64,000 nt of DNA from Rhodothermales bacterium. Its GTDB lineage: Bacteria; Bacteroidota; Rhodothermia; Rhodothermales; JANQRZ01. The notes below the pieces were generated by a model. The model had not been told where the DNA came from. It did not search any database and saw only the letters and a list, made by a program, of their open reading frames with translations. The translations under genes were made by a program, and so were the position numbers. Below are positions 28,387 through 38,700 of this stretch, piece after piece. The stretch spans positions 62,001-126,000 of the forward strand of contig JANQRZ010000017.1 in NCBI GenBank assembly GCA_028284265.1, read 5' to 3'. Each line of letters begins with the position of its first letter. The first letter of the stretch is position 1.

Positions 28387-31017
28387 TTATTGCAGCAGGG
28401 TCACCCGGCGCGTCGTGGCGAACTGCTCGCCAGTGACGCGGATCAGGTAGACCCCGGAGGCCAGCCGTGCCCCGTCTAGCTCAAACGTGCGCTGCGTCCC
28501 GGCGGCCATCAGGCCATCGTGGAGACGCGCCACCTCGCGGCCCATCACGTCATAGACGGCCACCTTTACCTCCTGCGGGGTGGCCACCTCGACCGCGAAC
28601 TGAGTCCGCCCGGTGAATGGGTTGGGGTAAGCCGCCGTCATCGTGTAGACGCCCGGCTGCGCGGTGCCTTCATTCGAGACCGGCGGAACGCCCGGCGGGA
28701 GGTCGAAGGCCTGAACGCCATCGTTGATGGTGGCGGACGATCCCTGGTCGGCACTGAAGCCGAGGCCGCGTCCTGCGAAGGCCCGCCAGATGATGTCCGA
28801 GTAGGCTCCTTCGTAGAGCGTCGTGTCGGCCTCTAGGATAGCGTCGCGGCCATCTACGAAGCCCGGCGAGCACGGCTGGAGTTTTAGCCCTTCGGTGACG
28901 AGTTGGAGAGCGATGTTGTTGCCTGCTTCGCCATTGATGAGATCGGCGTCGAAACCTTCCTCGGCGATCAGGCCCCACGTCATGTCCCAGAGCATCGTGG
29001 CCCAGACAGTCCCGAGACCGTGCGGGACGGAAACGGTTCGCATCGAGAAATAGGTACTCGGGTTCTCGGTCCTGTCCGTGGTGTAGCGCCACGGGCGGAT
29101 GCCCGGCCCGTCAGTGTCCGTGAACTCGAGGTAGGTCCCGATACCGCGACCTTGCTCGGCGGTGTCGCCTTCGCGCATGGACATCATCAAGCCGTAGTAG
29201 TCGCTCCAGCCCTCGCCCATCTGCTCCTGGTTGCCGAGGCAACCGGCCGCCGCTGGGCCGCCGGTGAGGCGGTTGGAGACGCCATGGCCGTACTCGTGGA
29301 CAATCACGCCATTGTCGAGGTCGGAGTCCCGGCTAATCTGAGCGGAGAGTGCTCCCTCTGTGCCGGGCGAGTTGGCGACGAGCGTCAGACCTGTGCTTTG
29401 CTGGACGAACGCCGACGGGATCGTGGCCTGATCGCCGACCGCTCCCGGACCCATGGTGATGAGGTCTTCGGGGCCGCCTGTCTCACCTGTGGCGGTGCGT
29501 GCGTTGTTGTGGATAATGACGCCGATGGCACCAGCGTCTTCCGCATTGAGCACCTTGACACCGAACTCGCAGTCGCCACGCTCGATCAGCGCGATGTTGC
29601 CCGCGATCTCGGCCGTGTTGATGACTTCTTCGCAGCCACGGTCGGCTCCGTCATCTCCGTCTTGGCTGCCACCATCGAAGCTGACAACGGGGACGATGGA
29701 AGCTGACTCTGCATTTGTCGGGAAGGACGGGCCGAAGCTGGCCGGGGCCGTCGGGTACGTTCCAGCGATTGCAATCGGGGCCGTCACCTCGAAGCGCGGC
29801 GGGGCATCCCACTGGAACATGCTCATGCGTGGGGCACCGCCATCCGGCGGGGTGCCGAAGGTGGCGTTGTTCGTGCCGCTACCGTCTTGAGCGTCGGCTT
29901 GGACGTAGTCATTGCCCGCTCCACCGTTGCCGAAGTTGTTTGCTTGGAAGTTGCCACTTGCTTCGTCGAAGCCGTAGTGGTACATCACGTCGTGGAAGAA
30001 GTTGTTCCAGTAGAACAGGTTCGTGATCGCCACGTCCTGATACTCCGGCGGGGTCTGGGTCTCGAAGTCCACGGCGAAGTCGAAGACGAGGTCCTCGCCG
30101 CCGTCCGGGCTGTAACCGGGGGCGTTGTTGCCGTCGCGGTCTTCGGAGGCGTGGACGTTGTTGCCGCGCGTGATGGTGTACTGTGCCGAGCCAGTGTCAT
30201 GCCAGCCGAGGGGCGAGGCCGTCGGGTCGGCGGGATCGACTTCTAGCGTCCGGTCGCCAAACGAAGGAGCTTCCAGCGGATAGGCCCACACGTTGTAGGA
30301 GCCACTGCCACCGCGTGCGCCGACCATCGGACTGGGCGCGAGCGGGCGGTAGTCCGCGGGCACCTGCATGTGCTCCGACAGCCACTCGTCATGTACGACC
30401 CAGTCGAGCTGGTCCAGCACGGCTCCGCTCTCAGCATCGATGCGGAGGCTCCACCAGTGGCGTGCGTCGAGCTGGTAGATCGAGAGGTCCCACGCGAGTT
30501 GGAGTGCGCCTTCTTCGGTGACGAAGTAGACGAGCTGGACCGGGATCGGCTCCAGCGATACACCCGCGTCGCTCAGGAGGAGGCGGTTGCGCTCGTCCAT
30601 CGGCTCTACCACCGACGGAGCCGCGCCGAGCGTGAGGTCGAGGTGCTGCGCGGCGGCCTCCACGGCGGCCTCCGGCGTCAGCGACGGGGTGGCGGCGCTA
30701 GCGGCACGGGCCGCACTCGGCACGAAGGTGCTGTGCACCGCGCGGACCTCGCCGATGCGCGTCACATGGGCGCTGGTGCGGGCGTTGTACACCTCAATGC
30801 CATTGACTGTCTGGCGGAGGTAGACGTGCGTCGTGCCGCTTTTGCGGCTGGTGTACTCGTCGGTGACGGCGACCTCGGCGAGGTCAGCTTCGCTGAGGCC
30901 GAGCGTGGCGCGCTCCGTGTTGAGGTGCTCGAGCACGGTCGAAAGCGCGGCGCTCTGCGCGAAGGCGAGCGGGGCACTCACGACGAGCAGGATGAGCACG
31001 AGTAGAAGTCGTTTCAT
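28387..31017 (-). CDS. Secreted M36 (fungalysin-type) metallopeptidase with T9SS-like sorting domain
   Basis: 876 residues from ATG 31017. Signal peptide (MKRLLLVLILLVVSAPLAFAQ), a fungalysin/thermolysin-type propeptide (about 30-110), the zinc-binding HEYGH near 574-578 with the third ligand region in EGWSDYYG, an inserted PA domain (about 420-560, DRGCEEVINTAEIAGNIALIE), and a C-terminal sorting domain (about 800-876) with YPNPFTGRTQF and VYDVMGREVARL. The sorting domain predicts export through the type IX system and surface attachment or release. Role: extracellular protein degradation. None of the secretion machinery is in this window. Confidence 0.95.
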   Translation of the reverse strand: MKRLLLVLILLVVSAPLAFAQSAALSTVLEHLNTERATLGLSEADLAEVAVTDEYTSRKSGTTHVYLRQTVNGIEVYNARTSAHVTRIGEVRAVHSTFVPSAARAASAATPSLTPEAAVEAAAQHLDLTLGAAPSVVEPMDERNRLLLSDAGVSLEPIPVQLVYFVTEEGALQLAWDLSIYQLDARHWWSLRIDAESGAVLDQLDWVVHDEWLSEHMQVPADYRPLAPSPMVGARGGSGSYNVWAYPLEAPSFGDRTLEVDPADPTASPLGWHDTGSAQYTITRGNNVHASEDRDGNNAPGYSPDGGEDLVFDFAVDFETQTPPEYQDVAITNLFYWNNFFHDVMYHYGFDEASGNFQANNFGNGGAGNDYVQADAQDGSGTNNATFGTPPDGGAPRMSMFQWDAPPRFEVTAPIAIAGTYPTAPASFGPSFPTNAESASIVPVVSFDGGSQDGDDGADRGCEEVINTAEIAGNIALIERGDCEFGVKVLNAEDAGAIGVIIHNNARTATGETGGPEDLITMGPGAVGDQATIPSAFVQQSTGLTLVANSPGTEGALSAQISRDSDLDNGVIVHEYGHGVSNRLTGGPAAAGCLGNQEQMGEGWSDYYGLMMSMREGDTAEQGRGIGTYLEFTDTDGPGIRPWRYTTDRTENPSTYFSMRTVSVPHGLGTVWATMLWDMTWGLIAEEGFDADLINGEAGNNIALQLVTEGLKLQPCSPGFVDGRDAILEADTTLYEGAYSDIIWRAFAGRGLGFSADQGSSATINDGVQAFDLPPGVPPVSNEGTAQPGVYTMTAAYPNPFTGRTQFAVEVATPQEVKVAVYDVMGREVARLHDGLMAAGTQRTFELDGARLASGVYLIRVTGEQFATTRRVTLLQ

Positions 31018-31066
31018 GAGCCTTAGGGGGGTTGTGAGGGAAGACACAGATTGAATAGAATAACAA

Positions 31067-31171: not shown

Positions 31172-32422
31172 TCAGGCCGCTGCTGGAGCCGGTCGCTCTG
31201 GGCGGGCCAGCAACTGCTCCCAGTCCACACGCCCCGTCAGTTGCATCACCCCGAACAGCGTCGCGATGCACAGCGCCGTGATCGTCAGCCCGGTATAGCC
31301 TTCGAGGAAGAATGTGTACGCGAACCCGACGAGGTAGACCAACTGCGCAAGCCCGACCTCAACCAGCGCGAACCGTGCCCCCGTCACAAGACGCATGTAT
31401 GACACCACGAGACCTACTGACACCGCCGAGCAGATTGCCACGGCGAGGTGGACCGACATATGATCGACGAGGTAGGAGAGCAGGAGGTGGAACGCGAAGA
31501 ACGACGCCCCGAGGAAGAAGTAGTGCATCGGGTGGAGCCGTACTCCGCGCATCAGGCTCAGGAGGAATAAGAGGAAGAAGAACAGGAACAGCGAGACCGG
31601 CGCGAAGAAGGTCACCCGGCTCACCCACGGGCCGGGGTTCAGCCGCTCCGGCATCGCCATGCCGAGGTCGGCGTCGGCCACGAGATGAGCGTACTGCCAG
31701 TCGAGCGCCCAGCCATTGTTAGTCCGCTCTTTCTTCGTCGCGGCGAGGGTGCCCGCCGGGAAGTCAATCTTCTTGAAGTCGGTCGTCATCGCGAGGCGGA
31801 AGTCACGGACCTGCTCGGTGCGCTCGCCGAAGTCGTAGCGCCACATCTCCGTGCCTTGCGAGCGATACCCGATGCGGAAGCCGATGGCCTCGCCCGGCTC
31901 TAGCTCTACCTCACGCACCGCCACGCCGTCTTCGATGGTGGCATCGCCTTCGTTTTTCCCATCAAGCGCGAACCGGAAGTTGTCGAGCACCGGCGCGCCT
32001 GTCGGAAAGCGGTAGCGGATACGGAAGGTCGCCGCCTCGTCGGTCGTGTTGCGAATCCGGTAGCGCCCGGCGAAATCGACCTCATAGGTCGGATGCCAGA
32101 GCAGGCCCTTCTTGCGGTGCTCCAGCGCGAGGTCGGCCTTGAGGTCGCTGCTGGCAAGCGGGTGGGCCTCCGTGCGGACGCGCTCGACGGTCCGCGTCGT
32201 CGGCTTGCCGTCTACGAGGTCGGCGATGGTTTCTTCATAGGGCACGAAGCGCTCAACGAGGGGAGCCTGCTGAAGCTGCGGCCCACCCCAGAGGGCACCG
32301 ACCGCGTTGCGCGTAGCGGCGCTTTGCTCGTGCGTGCGAACGGTGACGGCTCCGCCGAGGACGAACCAAGCGAAGGTGGTGCAGCCAAAGATGAAGGCGA
32401 TGGCGATGATGCGTTTGATCAT
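31172..32422 (-). CDS. CreD-like inner-membrane protein
   Basis: 416 residues. N-terminal membrane helix (about 3-28), a periplasmic beta-rich domain (about 40-280), then five membrane segments whose sequence matches the CreD end domain: SLMRGVRLHPMHYFFLGASF (about 300-320) and the final LTGRVDWEQL. CreD in enterobacteria belongs to the CreBC regulon and affects envelope integrity and beta-lactam/colicin tolerance; its biochemical function is unknown. The ATG overlaps the uppS stop (ATGA), an unusual pairing that suggests coupled expression with the lipid-carrier enzyme. No CreBC-type two-component pair is adjacent. Confidence 0.85.
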   Translation of the reverse strand: MIKRIIAIAFIFGCTTFAWFVLGGAVTVRTHEQSAATRNAVGALWGGPQLQQAPLVERFVPYEETIADLVDGKPTTRTVERVRTEAHPLASSDLKADLALEHRKKGLLWHPTYEVDFAGRYRIRNTTDEAATFRIRYRFPTGAPVLDNFRFALDGKNEGDATIEDGVAVREVELEPGEAIGFRIGYRSQGTEMWRYDFGERTEQVRDFRLAMTTDFKKIDFPAGTLAATKKERTNNGWALDWQYAHLVADADLGMAMPERLNPGPWVSRVTFFAPVSLFLFFFLLFLLSLMRGVRLHPMHYFFLGASFFAFHLLLSYLVDHMSVHLAVAICSAVSVGLVVSYMRLVTGARFALVEVGLAQLVYLVGFAYTFFLEGYTGLTITALCIATLFGVMQLTGRVDWEQLLARPERPAPAAA

Positions 32423-33159
32423 GTCGATTGGGTTTGGATGATAGGTTGGGATAGTGTGGACCCGTCGCCGCTGAGTCCGCCGAACCGGCGGTCCCGGCGG
32501 CGGAAGTCGGCGACCGCGTCGCCGAGGTCGGCGGCGGTGAGGTCGGGCCAGAGGGTGGAGGTGAAGACGAGTTCGGCGTAGGCACACTCCCAGAGGAGGA
32601 AGTCGCTCAGGCGCTGCTCGCCGCCGGTGCGGATCAGGAGGTCCACGTCCGGCGCGGTCGGGCTGTGCATCGCTTCGGCGAGGGCGTCGGTGAAGGCAGG
32701 TCGCGTTGGATCAGCACCGAGTTGACCGGCGGCTCGGCAGAGCGCGTCGCGGGCTGAGTAGTCCACGGCGATGCGGAGCGTGAGCGTCTCGCCGCCCCGC
32801 GTCTCCCACTCGGCCCGGGCGATGGCGGCGCGGACGGCTCCCGGCAGTCGGTCGCGTCGCCCGATGATGTGGAGGCGGACTCCTTCACGCTTCAGCTTCG
32901 GTAGCTCGGTGAAGAGGTAGCGTCGCAAGAGGTCCATCAGCGCGGCTACCTCCGTCCACGGGCGCTTCCAGTTGTCGGACGAGAAGGCGTAGAGCGTGAG
33001 CGTCCCGATGCCTAGCTTCGGTGCCGCTTCGACGATGCGACGGACGGTCTCGACGCCTGCGCGGTGACCGGCGGGGCGCGCCAGCCCTCGGGCTGTCGCC
33101 CAGCGCCCGTTGCCGTCCATGATGAGGGCGGCGTGGAGTAGGTGACTTTGGTGTTTCAT
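32419..33159 (-). CDS. uppS: Undecaprenyl (isoprenyl) diphosphate synthase
   Basis: 246 residues from ATG 33159, normal family length. Seen: MDGNGRWA with the Mg-binding Asp (about 14-21), GHRAG, the substrate-binding SSDNWKRP, and the C-terminal RTGGEQRLSDFLLWECAYAE...TLWPD. This cytosolic cis-prenyltransferase makes the C55 carrier used for peptidoglycan and other surface glycans. It overlaps the CreD-like gene by 4 bp. A 19-bp palindrome (33164-33182), nearly identical to one before the regulator operon, sits five bases before the ATG, implying shared control. Confidence 0.96.
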   Translation of the reverse strand: MKHQSHLLHAALIMDGNGRWATARGLARPAGHRAGVETVRRIVEAAPKLGIGTLTLYAFSSDNWKRPWTEVAALMDLLRRYLFTELPKLKREGVRLHIIGRRDRLPGAVRAAIARAEWETRGGETLTLRIAVDYSARDALCRAAGQLGADPTRPAFTDALAEAMHSPTAPDVDLLIRTGGEQRLSDFLLWECAYAELVFTSTLWPDLTAADLGDAVADFRRRDRRFGGLSGDGSTLSQPIIQTQST

Positions 33160-33163
33160 AAAA

Positions 33164-33182
33164 TACTTTGTGATGTAAAGTA
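33164..33182 (-). promoter_or_regulatory. Palindromic operator/promoter before uppS
   Basis: TACTTTGTGATGTAAAGTA: arms TACTTT and AAAGTA around a 7-bp centre. On the minus strand it includes TACTTTA, one base from the Bacteroidota -7 box. The adjoining AAAGTAAAGGGG is identical to the site at 34237-34260. No good -33 TTG is seen here. Confidence 0.5.
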
Positions 33183-33207
33183 AAGGGGCAAAAAAAGAGA
33201 CCATCTC

Positions 33208-33543
33208 TTACTGCCGAGCGGCAGAGATGATGGCCTCCATCTGGTCGAGGTACGTTTCGAGGGCGGTTCGTCCGGCGGCGGTCAACTCGTATTCGGTGCG
33301 GGGTGTGCGGTCGTCGAAGAACTTGCGGCAGGCGAGGTAGCCTGCGTCTTCGAGCTTTCGGGCATGAACACTCAGGTTGCCGTCCGTCGTGCCGAGCACG
33401 GTCTTGAGATCGCCAAAACTCATCGCCCCGCCCGCGGCGAGCGCACTGACGATACCGAGCCGCATCCGTTCATGGATCAGCTTGTCGAGGTCGGGAGCCG
33501 GAGTAGTCGCGGCTTTGCGTGTCGCGCGGGTCGTCTTTGCCAT
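33208..33543 (-). CDS. Winged-helix transcriptional regulator (HTH_34/MarR-like)
   Basis: 111 residues: a short basic N-terminal tail (MAKTTRATRKAATTP), then one winged helix-turn-helix (about 20-100; IHERMRLGIVSALAAGGAMSFGDLK, TDGNLSVHARKLEDAGYL recognition region, wing with DRTPRTEYELTAAG) and a C-terminal dimerisation helix. Such small regulators usually repress their own operon from a palindrome. It starts one base after the membrane-protein stop, so both genes form an operon. The palindromes at 34237-34253 and 33164-33182 are the natural target candidates. No metal- or ligand-binding site is recognisable. Confidence 0.88.
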   Translation of the reverse strand: MAKTTRATRKAATTPAPDLDKLIHERMRLGIVSALAAGGAMSFGDLKTVLGTTDGNLSVHARKLEDAGYLACRKFFDDRTPRTEYELTAAGRTALETYLDQMEAIISAARQ

Positions 33544-33544
33544 A

Positions 33545-34222
33545 TCAGCCTCCGTGTCTGCGTGCGATGAGAACGCCGAATACGATCTGCAATCCGCCGA
33601 AGCCGAGAGCCATAAAGCCGTTGCCCCACCCGGCGGGAGCGAGGAGGGCGAGCGCGCCGGTCAGCATGAACAAGCTGCCCATCAGCGGAATGAGCCGGAC
33701 CGAGAACATGCCTGCTGCGATGACGCCCGCACCGTAGAGCAAGAGCCACAGCCCTGGCAACAGACGTAGGCTCGCTGTTGCTCCAACGACTCCCTGCCGG
33801 ACGAAATACTCCTTCGTCGGCCCCACGTCGAATCCGTAGATGGCGAGGGTGAGGACGATCCCGGCTAGGACAGCAGGGGCGAGGCCGAGCAGGAACTTTC
33901 GGCCCTGGCCGCTGAGGAGCGGTACGCCGTGCCTTCGTGCCTTGCGTGCCGTCGCCCATGCGCCGATGGCAATCCCGACGAGTGCTTCGGCGGCCCACAC
34001 GCGCATCCACCCCACGACCGTCGCCTGCTGGACCGCAAACACCGCGGCGGCGAGCGCCGTAAAGCCCATCGCCACGCCGCCCCAGCCGGGGACGGCGGTG
34101 AACTCGGCGGTACGCGACATGGTGTCGCGGATGAACTGGAGGTGCGCCTCGGCGCGGCGCTCCGGGTGGGGCGCGGACTCGGTGCGCCGCAGGGTGCGCC
34201 GGTCAGAGCTTGGTCGTTTCAT
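33545..34222 (-). CDS. Multi-pass membrane protein paired with a winged-helix regulator
   Basis: 225 residues from ATG 34222 (a TTG at 34234 is the longer alternative). A basic N-terminus of about 45 residues is followed by about six hydrophobic segments (for example GVAMGFTALAAAVFAVQQA, KFLLGLAPAVLAGIVLTLAIYG, SLFMLTGALALLAP). No catalytic motif is visible. Pairing with a small winged-helix regulator in a two-gene operon is a recurrent layout in Bacteroidota, and the membrane partner may sense or protect against a membrane-active compound; that is inference. A good promoter with an overlapping palindrome precedes it. Confidence 0.75.
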   Translation of the reverse strand: MKRPSSDRRTLRRTESAPHPERRAEAHLQFIRDTMSRTAEFTAVPGWGGVAMGFTALAAAVFAVQQATVVGWMRVWAAEALVGIAIGAWATARKARRHGVPLLSGQGRKFLLGLAPAVLAGIVLTLAIYGFDVGPTKEYFVRQGVVGATASLRLLPGLWLLLYGAGVIAAGMFSVRLIPLMGSLFMLTGALALLAPAGWGNGFMALGFGGLQIVFGVLIARRHGG

Positions 34223-34236
34223 GCAGGACGTCAAGA

Positions 34237-34253
34237 ACTTTATGATGCAAAGT
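34237..34253 (-). promoter_or_regulatory. Palindromic operator before the regulator operon
   Basis: ACTTTATGATGCAAAGT: arms ACTTT/AAAGT with a 7-bp centre differing from the uppS copy at two positions. It overlaps the -7 box and predicted transcription start, a position suited to repression. Confidence 0.55.
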
Positions 34254-34277
34254 AAAGGGGAAAAGCGATGATGTCAA
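34248..34277 (-). promoter_or_regulatory. Bacteroidota-type promoter (TTG, 20 bp, TACTTTG)
   Basis: On the minus strand TTG (34277-34275) is separated by exactly 20 bp from TACTTTG (34254-34248), a full match to TAnnTTTG. The ATG lies 25 bp past the -7 box. This is the best promoter match I found in the window. Confidence 0.6.
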
Positions 34278-34774: not shown

Positions 34775-35071
34775 TCACACACTCGCCCCGTCTGCCAGAT
34801 CAACGAGGTCCGGGTTCTGCTGGCGGATAAGGTTCCACTTCCAGTCGCGGTGCCAGTTCTTGAGTTGCTTCTCTCGCGTAATGGCGTCGTGTACATCGCC
34901 GAACGTCTCGACCCAGAGCAGGTCCCGGATGCGGTAGCGTTTCGTAAAGCCGTCTACGAGCCCCTGTCTGTGCTCTGCGATACGCCGCGTCAAATTATTC
35001 GTCATGCCGATGTAAAGCACTGTGCGTCGCCTGTTCGACAGGATGTAGACGTAGTAGCGATGGTGTTTCAT
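34775..35071 (-). CDS. GIY-YIG domain protein (UPF0213-like)
   Basis: 98 residues forming a single GIY-YIG nuclease fold: YYVYILSNRRRTVLYIGMT (the VYI and YIG strands), Arg in LTRRIAEHR, and the Glu of ITREKQLKNWHR. This is the stand-alone short type common in Bacteroidota genomes, of unknown substrate. It sits at the edge of the accessory patch next to the decayed type ISP gene and inverted repeats. A GC-rich hairpin (GGGGCG/CGCCCC) covers its 3' end and may act as a terminator. Confidence 0.9.
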   Translation of the reverse strand: MKHHRYYVYILSNRRRTVLYIGMTNNLTRRIAEHRQGLVDGFTKRYRIRDLLWVETFGDVHDAITREKQLKNWHRDWKWNLIRQQNPDLVDLADGASV

Positions 35072-35108
35072 CAGGACCCTTTCAGATAGGTGCTCTACCT
35101 TCTCCCCC

Positions 35109-35198
35109 TGTCATCCTGAACTTGTTTCCCTGCGGGGAGGCTTCGCGTTCGGGATCCTGAAACGAGTTCAGGATGACAAGCGGGTTCAGGATGACAAG
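35109..35198. repeat. Inverted repeat, GTCATCCTGAACT type, with an extra half-unit
   Basis: TGTCATCCTGAACTTGTTT (35109-35127) pairs with 35160-35178 with one mismatch. A further GGGTTCAGGATGACAAGG copy follows at 35182-35199. It lies just downstream of the type ISP remnant; the open frame that seems to extend that gene here is reading repeat DNA. Confidence 0.8.
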
Positions 35199-35225
35199 GA
35201 TGGGTTCGGGAGGGCATCGGGCGAC

Positions 35226-37171
35226 TCAGAGCAGGCTCGTCTGGCCGGGGTCTTTGGGGCGGAGCGCTTGTGCGCGGTTCGCGGGCGCGTCGAAGGCACC
35301 GGCGGCGCGGAGGGTGTCGGCGTCGAGCGTGGGGCCGTCGCAGAGTTTGGAGCAGCGTGGCCTGGGCGGGTTCCACCGCGACGAGGCGGGCGAGGACGTT
35401 GAGCAGCTCCGTCGTGTACTCGGGGAGCCAGCCCTCGGGCTGGATGGCGTTGAGTGCCGACGGCGGGCGGCGGTTGCCGATGAGTGGGCGCGAGCGGTCC
35501 CGGCGGCGGTAGCTGAACCATTGGGTGAGCACCTGCTTGTCGGACACCTCGTAGGCCCAGACCTCCGGCGGCACGTGCTCCACGTAGCCGGTGCCGACGT
35601 ACAGCCGCTGCTCGTCGCTGTTGTAGTGCAGTTCGTCGGCGTCGGTGGGGATACTGGCGCCGTCGGGAATCGTGGGGCGGGCTTCGGCGCGCGGCGGGCC
35701 GGGGGGACGACCGGCTGCGGCATCGGCGAAGCGCTCGCCGAAGGTGTGGAGCCAGACGACCTCGCGCCCGAGCGTGACAGCCTCAGCCCACAGATCGGCG
35801 TTGGCGGTGAGCGGGAGGCCGGGCTGCACGAGGTCGTCGGCGAAGCGTTCGACGTAGGCCGGGTGCGCGGCGACGGCGGCGAGGTAGGCCATCACGTCCT
35901 CCGCCGAGACCGGCTGCCCATAGGCAGAGGCGAGAGCGGCGAGGAGGTTCGGGTTGACGTTCGGGGCCGTCGCTCCGGCGTCCTGCCACAGCGGAAAGAC
36001 GCGCCCGCCCCGACCGTTGTAGTGGTGAGCATCAGGAATCAGCGCCGTGAACGAGAGGGCCGGTCCGCTGGTGGGCGACTTGTCCGTGGGTGCCGTGAGG
36101 TAGACCTGCCGGTCGGAGTGCGCCGCCCACAGCGCCGGGTTCGCCTGGTTGATGAGCCGCTTGTCGGGGATGAGGTACTGCCGGTCGAACGAGCGGAAGG
36201 CGTAGCGCATCGGCGGGACGGCCTCGCGGGTGTCTTCCGCCACGGGCATCGAGCGCGATGCGTGGCCCGGCAATCCGCCCGTGTTGTCTTCCTTGTTGAC
36301 GTGCTTGTCGCCGGGTTTGCCGCCGTGCATGTGCGCGTGGAAGAGCTTGGCTTTACTTCTTCGGATCGGGATCGGCGGTCAGCCGCTGCCAGCGTTGCCG
36401 CAGCGTCTCGGCGTCGGGGGCGATGGGCCACGTCCGGCCGGTCATAACCCCCGTGCCGTCGCTCTTGGGAATAAATAGGTCGAAGAGTTTAGGATAGCTC
36501 GCCCAGTCGCCGCTTGCAGCGGGAAGGAAGGAGGCGCGCCAGCTATCGGATGCATCGTCCCACGCTTCGCCGTCGAGGTGGAGCGCAGTGAGGGCGTCGA
36601 ACTTCGCCTCGCGGTGGCCTTCGGGGAGCGCCGTGTAGCGAACGCGGGCGGGGGCGGTCTCGTCAATGTCCGGTGCGCGTGCGGCGAGGACGATGCAGAC
36701 GGGCTGCGGTACCCCCTGAAAGATTCGCGTATTCGTGTCGGGGAATTGGCCTTCGGGTGAGCAGTCGATCACCCATACGTCGGAGCAGTCGCGGCGGAGG
36801 TCGGCGCGTATCTTCTGGAAACCATCGCCTGCGAGGAAGCCCGCGGCGGTGATGTAGCAGATCACGCCCTCGCGCCGTGTCCCGGCCTCGGCCTCGCCCT
36901 GCGTCACCACGCGGTCCGCGCCCTTCCCCGGCGCCTTCACCTCGATGTGCCCGACCAGCGCGCCGTCCACCGTCACCGCATAGTCGGGCCGCGTCTTGAG
37001 GTCCGACAGCGAGTGCTCGCCGATGGCGGTGACGGCTCCCTCCGAAAAACCGGCGAGCGCGGCGAGGTCCGCGAGCAGCCCTTCGAGCGGGGCGCGAAGC
37101 TGGTCCTCCGGCTCGCCCGAGACGAGCGGGTTCGAGAGCTTCGCCTCGGCGGCTACGCCGAACCGGGACAC
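35226..37171 (-). pseudogene. Decayed type ISP restriction-modification gene (internal deletion plus two frameshifts)
   Basis: The pieces align in order to the roughly 1000-residue type ISP family (methylase with C-terminal specificity domain). Piece 1 (GTG 37171 to 36353) begins with the N-terminal nuclease-like part (PEDQLRAPLEGLLADL, GHIEVKAPGKGAD) and at about residue 86-98 jumps straight to the post-methylase part (REGVICYITAAGFL...WVIDCSPEGQ...RTWPIAPDAETLRQRW). Thus the whole SAM-binding/NPPY methylase core, several hundred residues, is missing. Piece 2 continues in another frame after a one-base shift near 36355 (KLFHAHM...RYAFRSFDRQYLIPD), covering the specificity domain. A second shift near 35340 restores LCDGPTLDADTL to the true end QTSLL at 35226. 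It cannot make a functional enzyme. Confidence 0.88.
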
Positions 37172-37530
37172 GGCAGCGGTAAGTCACGGGCAGGCATAGA
37201 GTTGCGGAGCTAACGCGGCGAAGGCGGAGCGCGCAAAATACTGGTGCTGCGACAAGTTCATGCGGACCGATCTGTCATCCTGAACTTGGTTCAGGATCTC
37301 AGGGGGATGGCTCTGTATCCACGGGATGGGCTGCGCCGCTGCTGCGCGGTCCGGATCGGGGTCCGGGATGACAGCCTTTCTTGAGTTTCTGAGCACAACT
37401 AGCCCTGATGGCAAAACGGAGCACGCAACCTTCAGCGAGGAGCTATTCGGGTAGGCTGTGTTAACTAAAGATTGTGGGTTTATCTTTTAACAGAGTCTGA
37501 TCCGCGTTGAATGTTTGCCCCGGAACCTTT
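37172..37530. other. 359-bp gene-free gap upstream of the Fic gene
   Basis: Contains the repeat at 37277-37374. A TATCTTT box (37481-37487) about 44 bp before the Fic start may be part of a promoter, though no TTG is properly spaced. No credible coding frame. Confidence 0.6.
37277..37374. repeat. GTCATCC-family repeat with a small inner palindrome
   Basis: ATCCTGAAC (37277-37285) and GTTCAGGAT (37289-37297) form a tight palindrome; the outer words CTGTCATCC (37272-37280) and GGATGACAG (37367-37375) close a larger unit. It is a second flanking repeat on the other side of the type ISP remnant. Confidence 0.65.
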
Positions 37531-38700
37531 ATGAGTGACACGACCACCGCAAGCGGTCGCTACGTCGAGGATTCGTCCTCCGGCGAGACGGTGCGCGCCT
37601 TCGTCCCGGCCCCGCTACCGCCCGAATTAAACCTCACGCTCAATGACTACAACTTGATCGAGGAGGCGAACCGCGCGCTCGGGCGGCTCGATGCGTTCTA
37701 TTCCGTCGCCGCGCTGCCCGAGGGGTTCTCGGACCTATTTACCTACCACTCGATCCGAAAGGAAGCCGTCCTCTCGTCGCAGATCGAGGGCACCCAATCG
37801 TCGTTCACGGATCTCCTGCTACACGAGGATGAGCGTGTCCCCGGCGTTCCGCTGGACGATGTGCAGGAGGTGTCGAGCTATGTCTCAGCGCTGAACCATG
37901 GGCTAGAGCGGCTGGCCGGTGGCTTTCCGCTCTCGCTCCGGCTGATCCGCGAGGTCCACGCGAAGCTCTTGGCGCACGGGCGCGGAGCCGACAAGTCGCC
38001 CGGCGAGTTCCGTCGCTCACAGGTGTGGCTGGGCGGACGCCGCCCGAGCCAAGCGACGTTCGTGCCACCTCCGCCCGGTGAGGTCATGGGATGCCTCGAC
38101 CCATTCGAGCACTTCATCCACGATCCCACTTATCCCGTACTGCTGAAAGCGGGCCTCGCGCACGTTCAATTCGAGACGATCCACCCGTTCCTCGACGGCA
38201 ATGGACGTGTTGGTCGCCTCCTGATCACGCTGCTGCTATGCGAGCAAGACGTGCTGAAGGAGTCGGTTCTCTACCTCAGCCTGTACTTCAAAATGAACCG
38301 GCAGGCGTATTACGATCACCTCCAGCGAGTCCGAACCGAGGGCGACTGGGAAGGGTGGCTTCGGTACTTCCTCAAAGGCGTTCGGGACACCGCACGGGAA
38401 GCCCTCGGGACAGCGCAGGAGGCGCTTGCACTTTTCGAGGCAGACCGCGATAAGATCGGTGGTCTTGGGCGCGGGGCGGCGTCAGCACAGGCCGTCTTCG
38501 CGATGCTTCAGCGACATCCCCTCACGACGATTCCCGCTGCGACCGAGCGGCTCGATTTGAGCTACCCGACGGTGCGGGATGCTCTCGGTCGTCTCGAAGA
38601 GATCGGGATCGTGCAGGAGGTGACGGGCGAAGAGCGGGGCCGACTCTACGTGTACGATCACTACCTGCGCCTCCTCAACAAAGACACCGAGCCGCTCTAG
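37531..38700 (+). CDS. Fic family AMP-transferase-like protein with built-in inhibitory motif
   Basis: 389 residues from ATG 37531. Seen: the inhibitory helix motif SSQIEG (residues 82-87, fits (S/T)xxxE(G/N)), placing it in class II Fic proteins that block their own ATP site; the catalytic loop [12 protein letters not shown] (His218 onward); and a C-terminal winged helix (about 305-380, [25 protein letters not shown]). Fic enzymes transfer AMP or another nucleotide part to protein hydroxyls. This N-Fic-wHTH layout is common in bacterial accessory regions, target unknown. No separate antitoxin gene is adjacent. Its TAG overlaps the recG stop in a shared CTAG. Confidence 0.94.

Follow-up and report, generated by a model that had tools for sequence, protein, structure and literature searches.

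The two near-identical palindromes found in the window (the whole 64,000-nt stretch of Rhodothermales DNA analysed here) appear to belong to what looks like a real operator-regulator module, shared across phyla and with uppS among its targets. In the model that we favour and consider quite probable, an autoregulated winged-helix protein (wHTH) represses both the operon that it forms with a membrane protein (memb) and the uppS-creD unit through two predicted operators, O1 and O2, and memb acts as a sensor that relieves this repression (Table 1). A dimer of wHTH, a PF13601 protein, would bind the 17-bp dyad ACTTT-RYRNYRY-AAAGT. Bound to O1, the dimer would mask the -10 element from which memb-wHTH is transcribed; bound to O2, it would stop transcription immediately ahead of the uppS-creD start. 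By sensing the state of the envelope, memb would relieve the repression exerted by wHTH, and this relief would raise the levels of the cis-prenyltransferase that makes the polyprenyl carrier lipid, of CreD and of other membrane proteins.

Table 1. Features of the predicted module, with positions counted from the first nucleotide of the window
Feature	Position	Strand	Remarks
creD-like gene	31172..32422	-	PF06123; 4-bp overlap of its start with the uppS stop codon
uppS paralogue, 246 aa, PRK14839-type cis-prenyltransferase	32419..33159	-	PF01255, NF011412
Operator O2 (predicted), 5' of uppS-creD	33165..33181	.	minus strand reads ACTTTACATCACAAAGT / CCCCTTTACTTTACATCACAAAGT
Hairpin with a 3' T run, between wHTH and uppS	33190..33231	-	fold -13.7 kcal/mol, z -2.2
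wHTH, 111-aa winged-helix regulator	33208..33543	-	Pfam PF13601 HTH_34, profile match
memb, 225-aa membrane protein	33545..34222	-	without Pfam family
Operator O1 (predicted), 5' of the memb-wHTH operon	34237..34253	.	minus strand reads ACTTTGCATCATAAAGT / CCCCTTTACTTTGCATCATAAAGT
Probable memb-wHTH promoter	34249..34277	-	TTGACA 34272-34277, 17-nt spacer, TACTTT 34249-34254; reading by eye

Both palindromes, ACTTTGTGATGTAAAGT at 33165-33181 (O2) and ACTTTATGATGCAAAGT at 34237-34253 (O1), fit the pattern ACTTT-N7-AAAGT. They share 15 of their 17 bases and are both followed on the plus strand by AAAGGGG; with their surroundings included, they form a 28-nt direct repeat of 89% identity. O1 lies 14 bp from the ATG of memb (34222) and O2 lies 5 bp from that of uppS (33159). 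The near-identity of the pair, its shared edge and both spacings are as the initial annotation had described them, and the TTG-N20-TACTTTG string that it had described as overlapped by the second site is indeed present there, on the minus strand. The pair is far above chance: the window contains only these two exact copies, while dinucleotide shuffles gave a mean of 0.01 and never two, and a search of the window at one mismatch still returned these two sites alone. Across the whole 3.69-Mb genome, the pattern has three matches, the third of which is unlinked to the window pair and lies 5' of another membrane-protein gene (memb2).

The placement of the sites is conserved well beyond this genome. 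Relatives of wHTH were taken from 60 genomes of the window's group, from named metagenome-assembled genomes (MAGs) of other phyla, and from the phylum to which a Gemmatimonadota MAG belongs (200 genomes, of which 139 contained a match). Altogether, 62 loci, drawn from Rhodothermia, Gemmatimonadota, Acidobacteriota and other MAGs, had a readable region upstream of memb. When one mismatch at most is allowed, a site is found within about 200 bp 5' of memb in 54 of them (0.28 expected from dinucleotide shuffles); for linked uppS genes, the number with a site on their 5' side is 17 of 45 (0.06 expected from such shuffles), these counts being of loci that are related within one phylum and hence not independent events. 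None of the 32 housekeeping uppS genes is preceded by a site, and the pattern at memb and uppS repeats in each of the three genome sets. About half of the linked uppS genes are without a site of their own; most of these are located close behind wHTH, the closest one overlapping it, as expected if they share the wHTH transcript, and some are at least 100 bp away. The seven spacer bases follow RYRNYRY (70, 61, 64, 57, 64 and 69 of 71 sites at the six specified positions, in that order), which constitutes an independent sign of a dyad since the search left the spacer free. Watson-Crick pairing of the symmetric spacer positions was not above column expectation, and the symmetry is one of purine/pyrimidine class alone. 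The initial annotation had regarded absence of the palindrome from close relatives as counter-evidence; such absence was looked for, and the sites were found to recur.

How the sites are positioned bears on the direction of control. The site and the probable -10 element overlap in the window and in its nearest relatives. For linked uppS genes, it lies just upstream in the window's own family and spans the start codon in many others, with ATG or GTG at operator position 6 or 9; where it does span the start codon, its right half also encodes protein (M-x-Q-S), and part of its conservation could be at the protein level. Sites over a -10 or over a start codon suit a repressor or a roadblock. The geometry is different in Gemmatimonadota and Acidobacteriota, where 2 nt separate the end of the site from TTGAC(A/G) and most loci show a plausible -10 at a spacing of 16-18 nt. 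This is the main argument for the reading that wHTH binds the same sites and activates, since class II activators bind flush against the -35 box, as the sites do in most Gemmatimonadota loci and also in Acidobacteriota. However, an activator could not work on its promoter from a site over the -10, as in the window and its nearest relatives, nor from the many uppS sites that cover the start codon. We thus regard activation as unlikely, and repression appears likelier by far. Two other particularities of the promoters were noted. In loci of family f12, including L043 (genome G039), the memb promoter seems to hold a pair of operator-like dyads, of which the first covers the -35 (ACTTGACACCGCAAAGT) and the second the -10 (TACTTTGGATCACAAAGA). 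In many of the Gemmatimonadota loci L178-L205, a mere 6-12 nt or so separate the predicted -10 from the start codon of memb, which suggests leaderless transcripts.

The putative repressor, wHTH, scores 83 bits against PF13601 (gathering score 27) and covers profile positions 2-80 of 80. Its AF2 model (pLDDT 89) has a winged-helix fold whose best PDB match is 1ub9 (TM 0.75 by query, E 8.5e-6), followed by MarR, HxlR and ArsR proteins, and its recognition-helix region DGNLSVHARKLE is nearly invariant. Its partner memb has no match among Pfam and NCBIfam models, and the AF2 model (pLDDT 89) predicts an N-terminal helix followed by a bundle of mostly hydrophobic helices. Foldseek combined with VIA-align returned no convincing relative of memb (best E 1.0); the best Z of 9.3, to a designed helical barrel, was rejected, this Z range being called common for helical bundles. 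Among the 60 related genomes, memb and wHTH are both present in the same 23 and both absent from the same 37, and the constancy of this membrane partner suggests a sensor.

The sites themselves follow wHTH. In AT-rich relatives, the plain ACTTT-N7-AAAGT pattern proved too loose, its reversed control being equally frequent, and the strict spacer motif ACTTTRYRNYRYAAAGT was therefore adopted. It is present in 10 of the 23 genomes with wHTH (strong matches) versus one of the 37 without (Fisher p 1.3e-4), where the counts near the module are not independent because the motif was partly derived from the same loci, and the absence from wHTH-less genomes is independent. The reversed control of the strict motif gave one match across all 60 genomes. 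Could the sites be operators of another DNA-binding protein, with wHTH as a bystander? One MAG of 89% completeness (G031) has sites while neither wHTH nor memb was found in it; our guess is that its wHTH may simply be missing from the assembly. Yet the sites adjoin wHTH across phyla, the strict motif tracks its presence, wHTH is the sole HTH_34 protein of the genome, and no other cluster-constant regulator was noticed in the loci examined, all of which makes a bystander role very unlikely. The earlier proposal that wHTH represses its own operon and the uppS unit is thereby reinforced as regards the sites, which are conserved at both places, track wHTH and are placed as fits repression, while the binding and the repression are what we infer from them.

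A closer look at the promoter region concerns what else the likeness of O1 and O2 might reflect. The TTG-N20-TACTTTG string is equally readable as TTGACA - 17 nt - TACTTT, in which TTGACA is perfect, TACTTT agrees with TATAAT at four of six positions, and this second hexamer overlaps O1. The memb-wHTH promoter is a reading by eye because a consensus scanner scored none at O1; elsewhere, too, the sites abut or overlap promoter-like elements that were predicted by eye, the scanner having called none. A comparable -35 was looked for 5' of the uppS site and none was seen. Bacteroidota promoters carry a -7 box, TAnnTTTG, which TACTTTG resembles, and the overlap of TACTTTG with the site, with TTGACA 17 nt upstream at O1, would agree with a shared core promoter element rather than an operator. 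We hold this to be highly improbable, as conservation extends to the right arm and to the class-symmetric spacer, the position of the promoter relative to the site shifts between phyla, and exact sites number only three in the genome. Finally, chance or a recently duplicated, functionless 28-nt stretch was rejected as having a negligible probability: the AAAGGGG flank is identical in both copies, as local duplication would give, but other families and phyla have these sites in the same positions. Between wHTH and uppS, the hairpin and T run listed in Table 1, which the consensus scanner did not call as a terminator, may form a possible weak terminator that splits the two genes into separate transcripts.

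The predicted regulon of wHTH is wider than memb-wHTH and uppS-creD and includes memb2, DUF4153-type and ferritin-like genes in relatives. The memb2 gene, unlinked and 3' of the third genomic site, encodes a 188-aa membrane protein; its orthologues have the site in five of seven genomes with wHTH versus one of 16 without (p 0.003), the wHTH-containing genomes G007 and G009 having no site before it. In G031, which is the exception both here and in the strict-motif comparison, there are sites 5' of memb2, of a DUF4153 gene and of a ferritin-like gene. The DUF4153 genes with a site are L132 and L133. The ferritin-like gene L131 is preceded by a site, and a homologue of it is located between uppS and creD in G013. 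Sites were also found before a small membrane-anchored family (L040, L046) and, in family f12, before a second family of multi-helix membrane proteins that adjoins wHTH and is without a Pfam match.

What the module might do for carrier-lipid supply depends on the enzyme encoded by the linked uppS. In the window, it scores 245 bits against PF01255, 223.9 against TIGR00055 (cut-off 109.55) and 353 against NF011412 (334), and it is the second UppS of the genome, the housekeeping uppS being located on contig C16 with a higher family-profile score. Alignment to solved UppS revealed the active-site motifs (DGNGRW, GH, NW, RTGGE and the E of AYAEL), to which the catalytic residues are assigned, and a conservative change of SSENW to SSDNW. 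The creD-like product reaches 62.8 bits against PF06123 (cut-off 23), with its best stretch C-terminal, and 63.4 bits against the NCBIfam CreD equivalog NF008712, which is below the cut-off of 275; by the rule of that model, it is classified as CreD-like and not as a CreD orthologue. In L048 and L049 of the Rhodothermia family f15, a DUF4389 membrane protein follows uppS in place of creD.

In the Rhodothermia family f15, which belongs to the same order as the window, six genomes of 97-99% completeness yielded no uppS besides the linked copy, and this copy is also the sole uppS found in six of the 16 Gemmatimonadota genomes examined, whose completeness is not given. In the UppS tree, the f15 enzymes and those of four of the six sole-UppS Gemmatimonadota fall within the main linked clade, which has 100/99 support and is separate from housekeeping UppS, while the sole UppS of G086 and G116 fall in a second small linked group. 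Linked UppS do not form one clade, L103 being counted as the linked gene of G032. Judged from this tree and these gene inventories, main-clade linked UppS can evidently serve as the only UppS of a cell, which makes a role of the linked enzymes in carrier supply likely. In the window organism, the link of the palindromes to the C55 pool would be indirect or conditional, because a housekeeping uppS is present elsewhere and housekeeping uppS genes are without the site. The tie to the C55 carrier that the initial annotation had drawn is thus weakened here, where uppS is a PRK14839-type second copy, and strengthened where the linked uppS is the only one, in f15 and the six Gemmatimonadota. A bolder extension, which we put forward tentatively and rate at somewhat below even chances, is a cross-phylum, membrane-linked homeostatic switch for the supply of polyprenyl carrier lipid: memb would sense either the envelope or the pool of carrier and would signal to the PF13601 repressor, which would then release uppS (in some lineages the sole UppS) together with CreD, DUF4153-type and other membrane proteins.

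Other genes and repeats of the window deserve mention on their own account. Two ORFs in different frames on the minus strand (36353-37171 and 35095-36330) successively match the C-terminal domain of Type ISP restriction-modification enzymes, and the region 35095-37171 (-) probably encodes a disrupted or truncated enzyme of that type. A small stand-alone protein with a GIY-YIG nuclease domain is encoded at 34775-35071 (-), and the inverted repeats TGTCATCCTGAAC / GTTCAGGATGACA at 35104-35199, which adjoin its gene, are a possible mobile repeat. The window also encodes an M36 fungalysin-type metallopeptidase with a PA domain and a Por_Secre_tail sorting domain (28387-31047, -), and a Fic/DOC family protein with a winged-helix end (37507-38700, +).

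Among known regulators, the closest relative of wHTH is the PF13601 HTH_34 family, whose solved example (1ub9, PH1061) is of the same sequence family and fold, short and one-domain; the difference is that wHTH is assigned a proposed operator, regulon and membrane partner here. Searchable open-access papers yielded no function or operator for this family and no description of the regulator, the operator or the module. If the model is true, a member of PF13601 would receive a first function, and the DUF4153-type and memb families, both uncharacterised, would be placed in a context. The ArsR/SmtB, MarR and HxlR (YodB) repressors are small winged-helix proteins that act as dimers on short palindromes over their own promoters, and wHTH shows weak profile and fold similarity to them; unlike these repressors, it has a constant membrane-protein partner. 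An identity as an ArsR/SmtB metalloregulator was rejected in view of the low score against NCBIfam HTH_metalloreg (29 bits, cut-off 55) and of a search for a conserved cysteine pair or metal site, which found that, in 34 sequences, no invariant or nearly invariant column holds a cysteine.

Peptidoglycan, O-antigen and other glycans all depend on undecaprenyl phosphate as a common carrier that is limiting and, to our knowledge, little is known about the transcriptional control of its synthase. In Lactococcus, the MarR regulator RmaH is reportedly tied to cell-wall and membrane lipid genes and is described as an activator (PMC13277315). RmaH and wHTH are both winged-helix regulators, RmaH being of another family. 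We know of no membrane partner or ACTTT-N7-AAAGT operator for RmaH. In Bacillus subtilis, SigM with YhdLK offers a case in which a membrane complex reports the undecaprenyl-phosphate pool to a transcription factor; this factor is a sigma factor held by an anti-sigma complex, it occurs in Bacillus and its relatives alone, and its action is not believed to run through an increase in UppS (PMC11081497). Compared with SigM-YhdLK, the module of the window would rely on a winged-helix regulator and would have uppS in its regulon, and its combination of regulator, predicted operator, constant membrane partner and target set offers a directly testable route to the adjustment of carrier supply.
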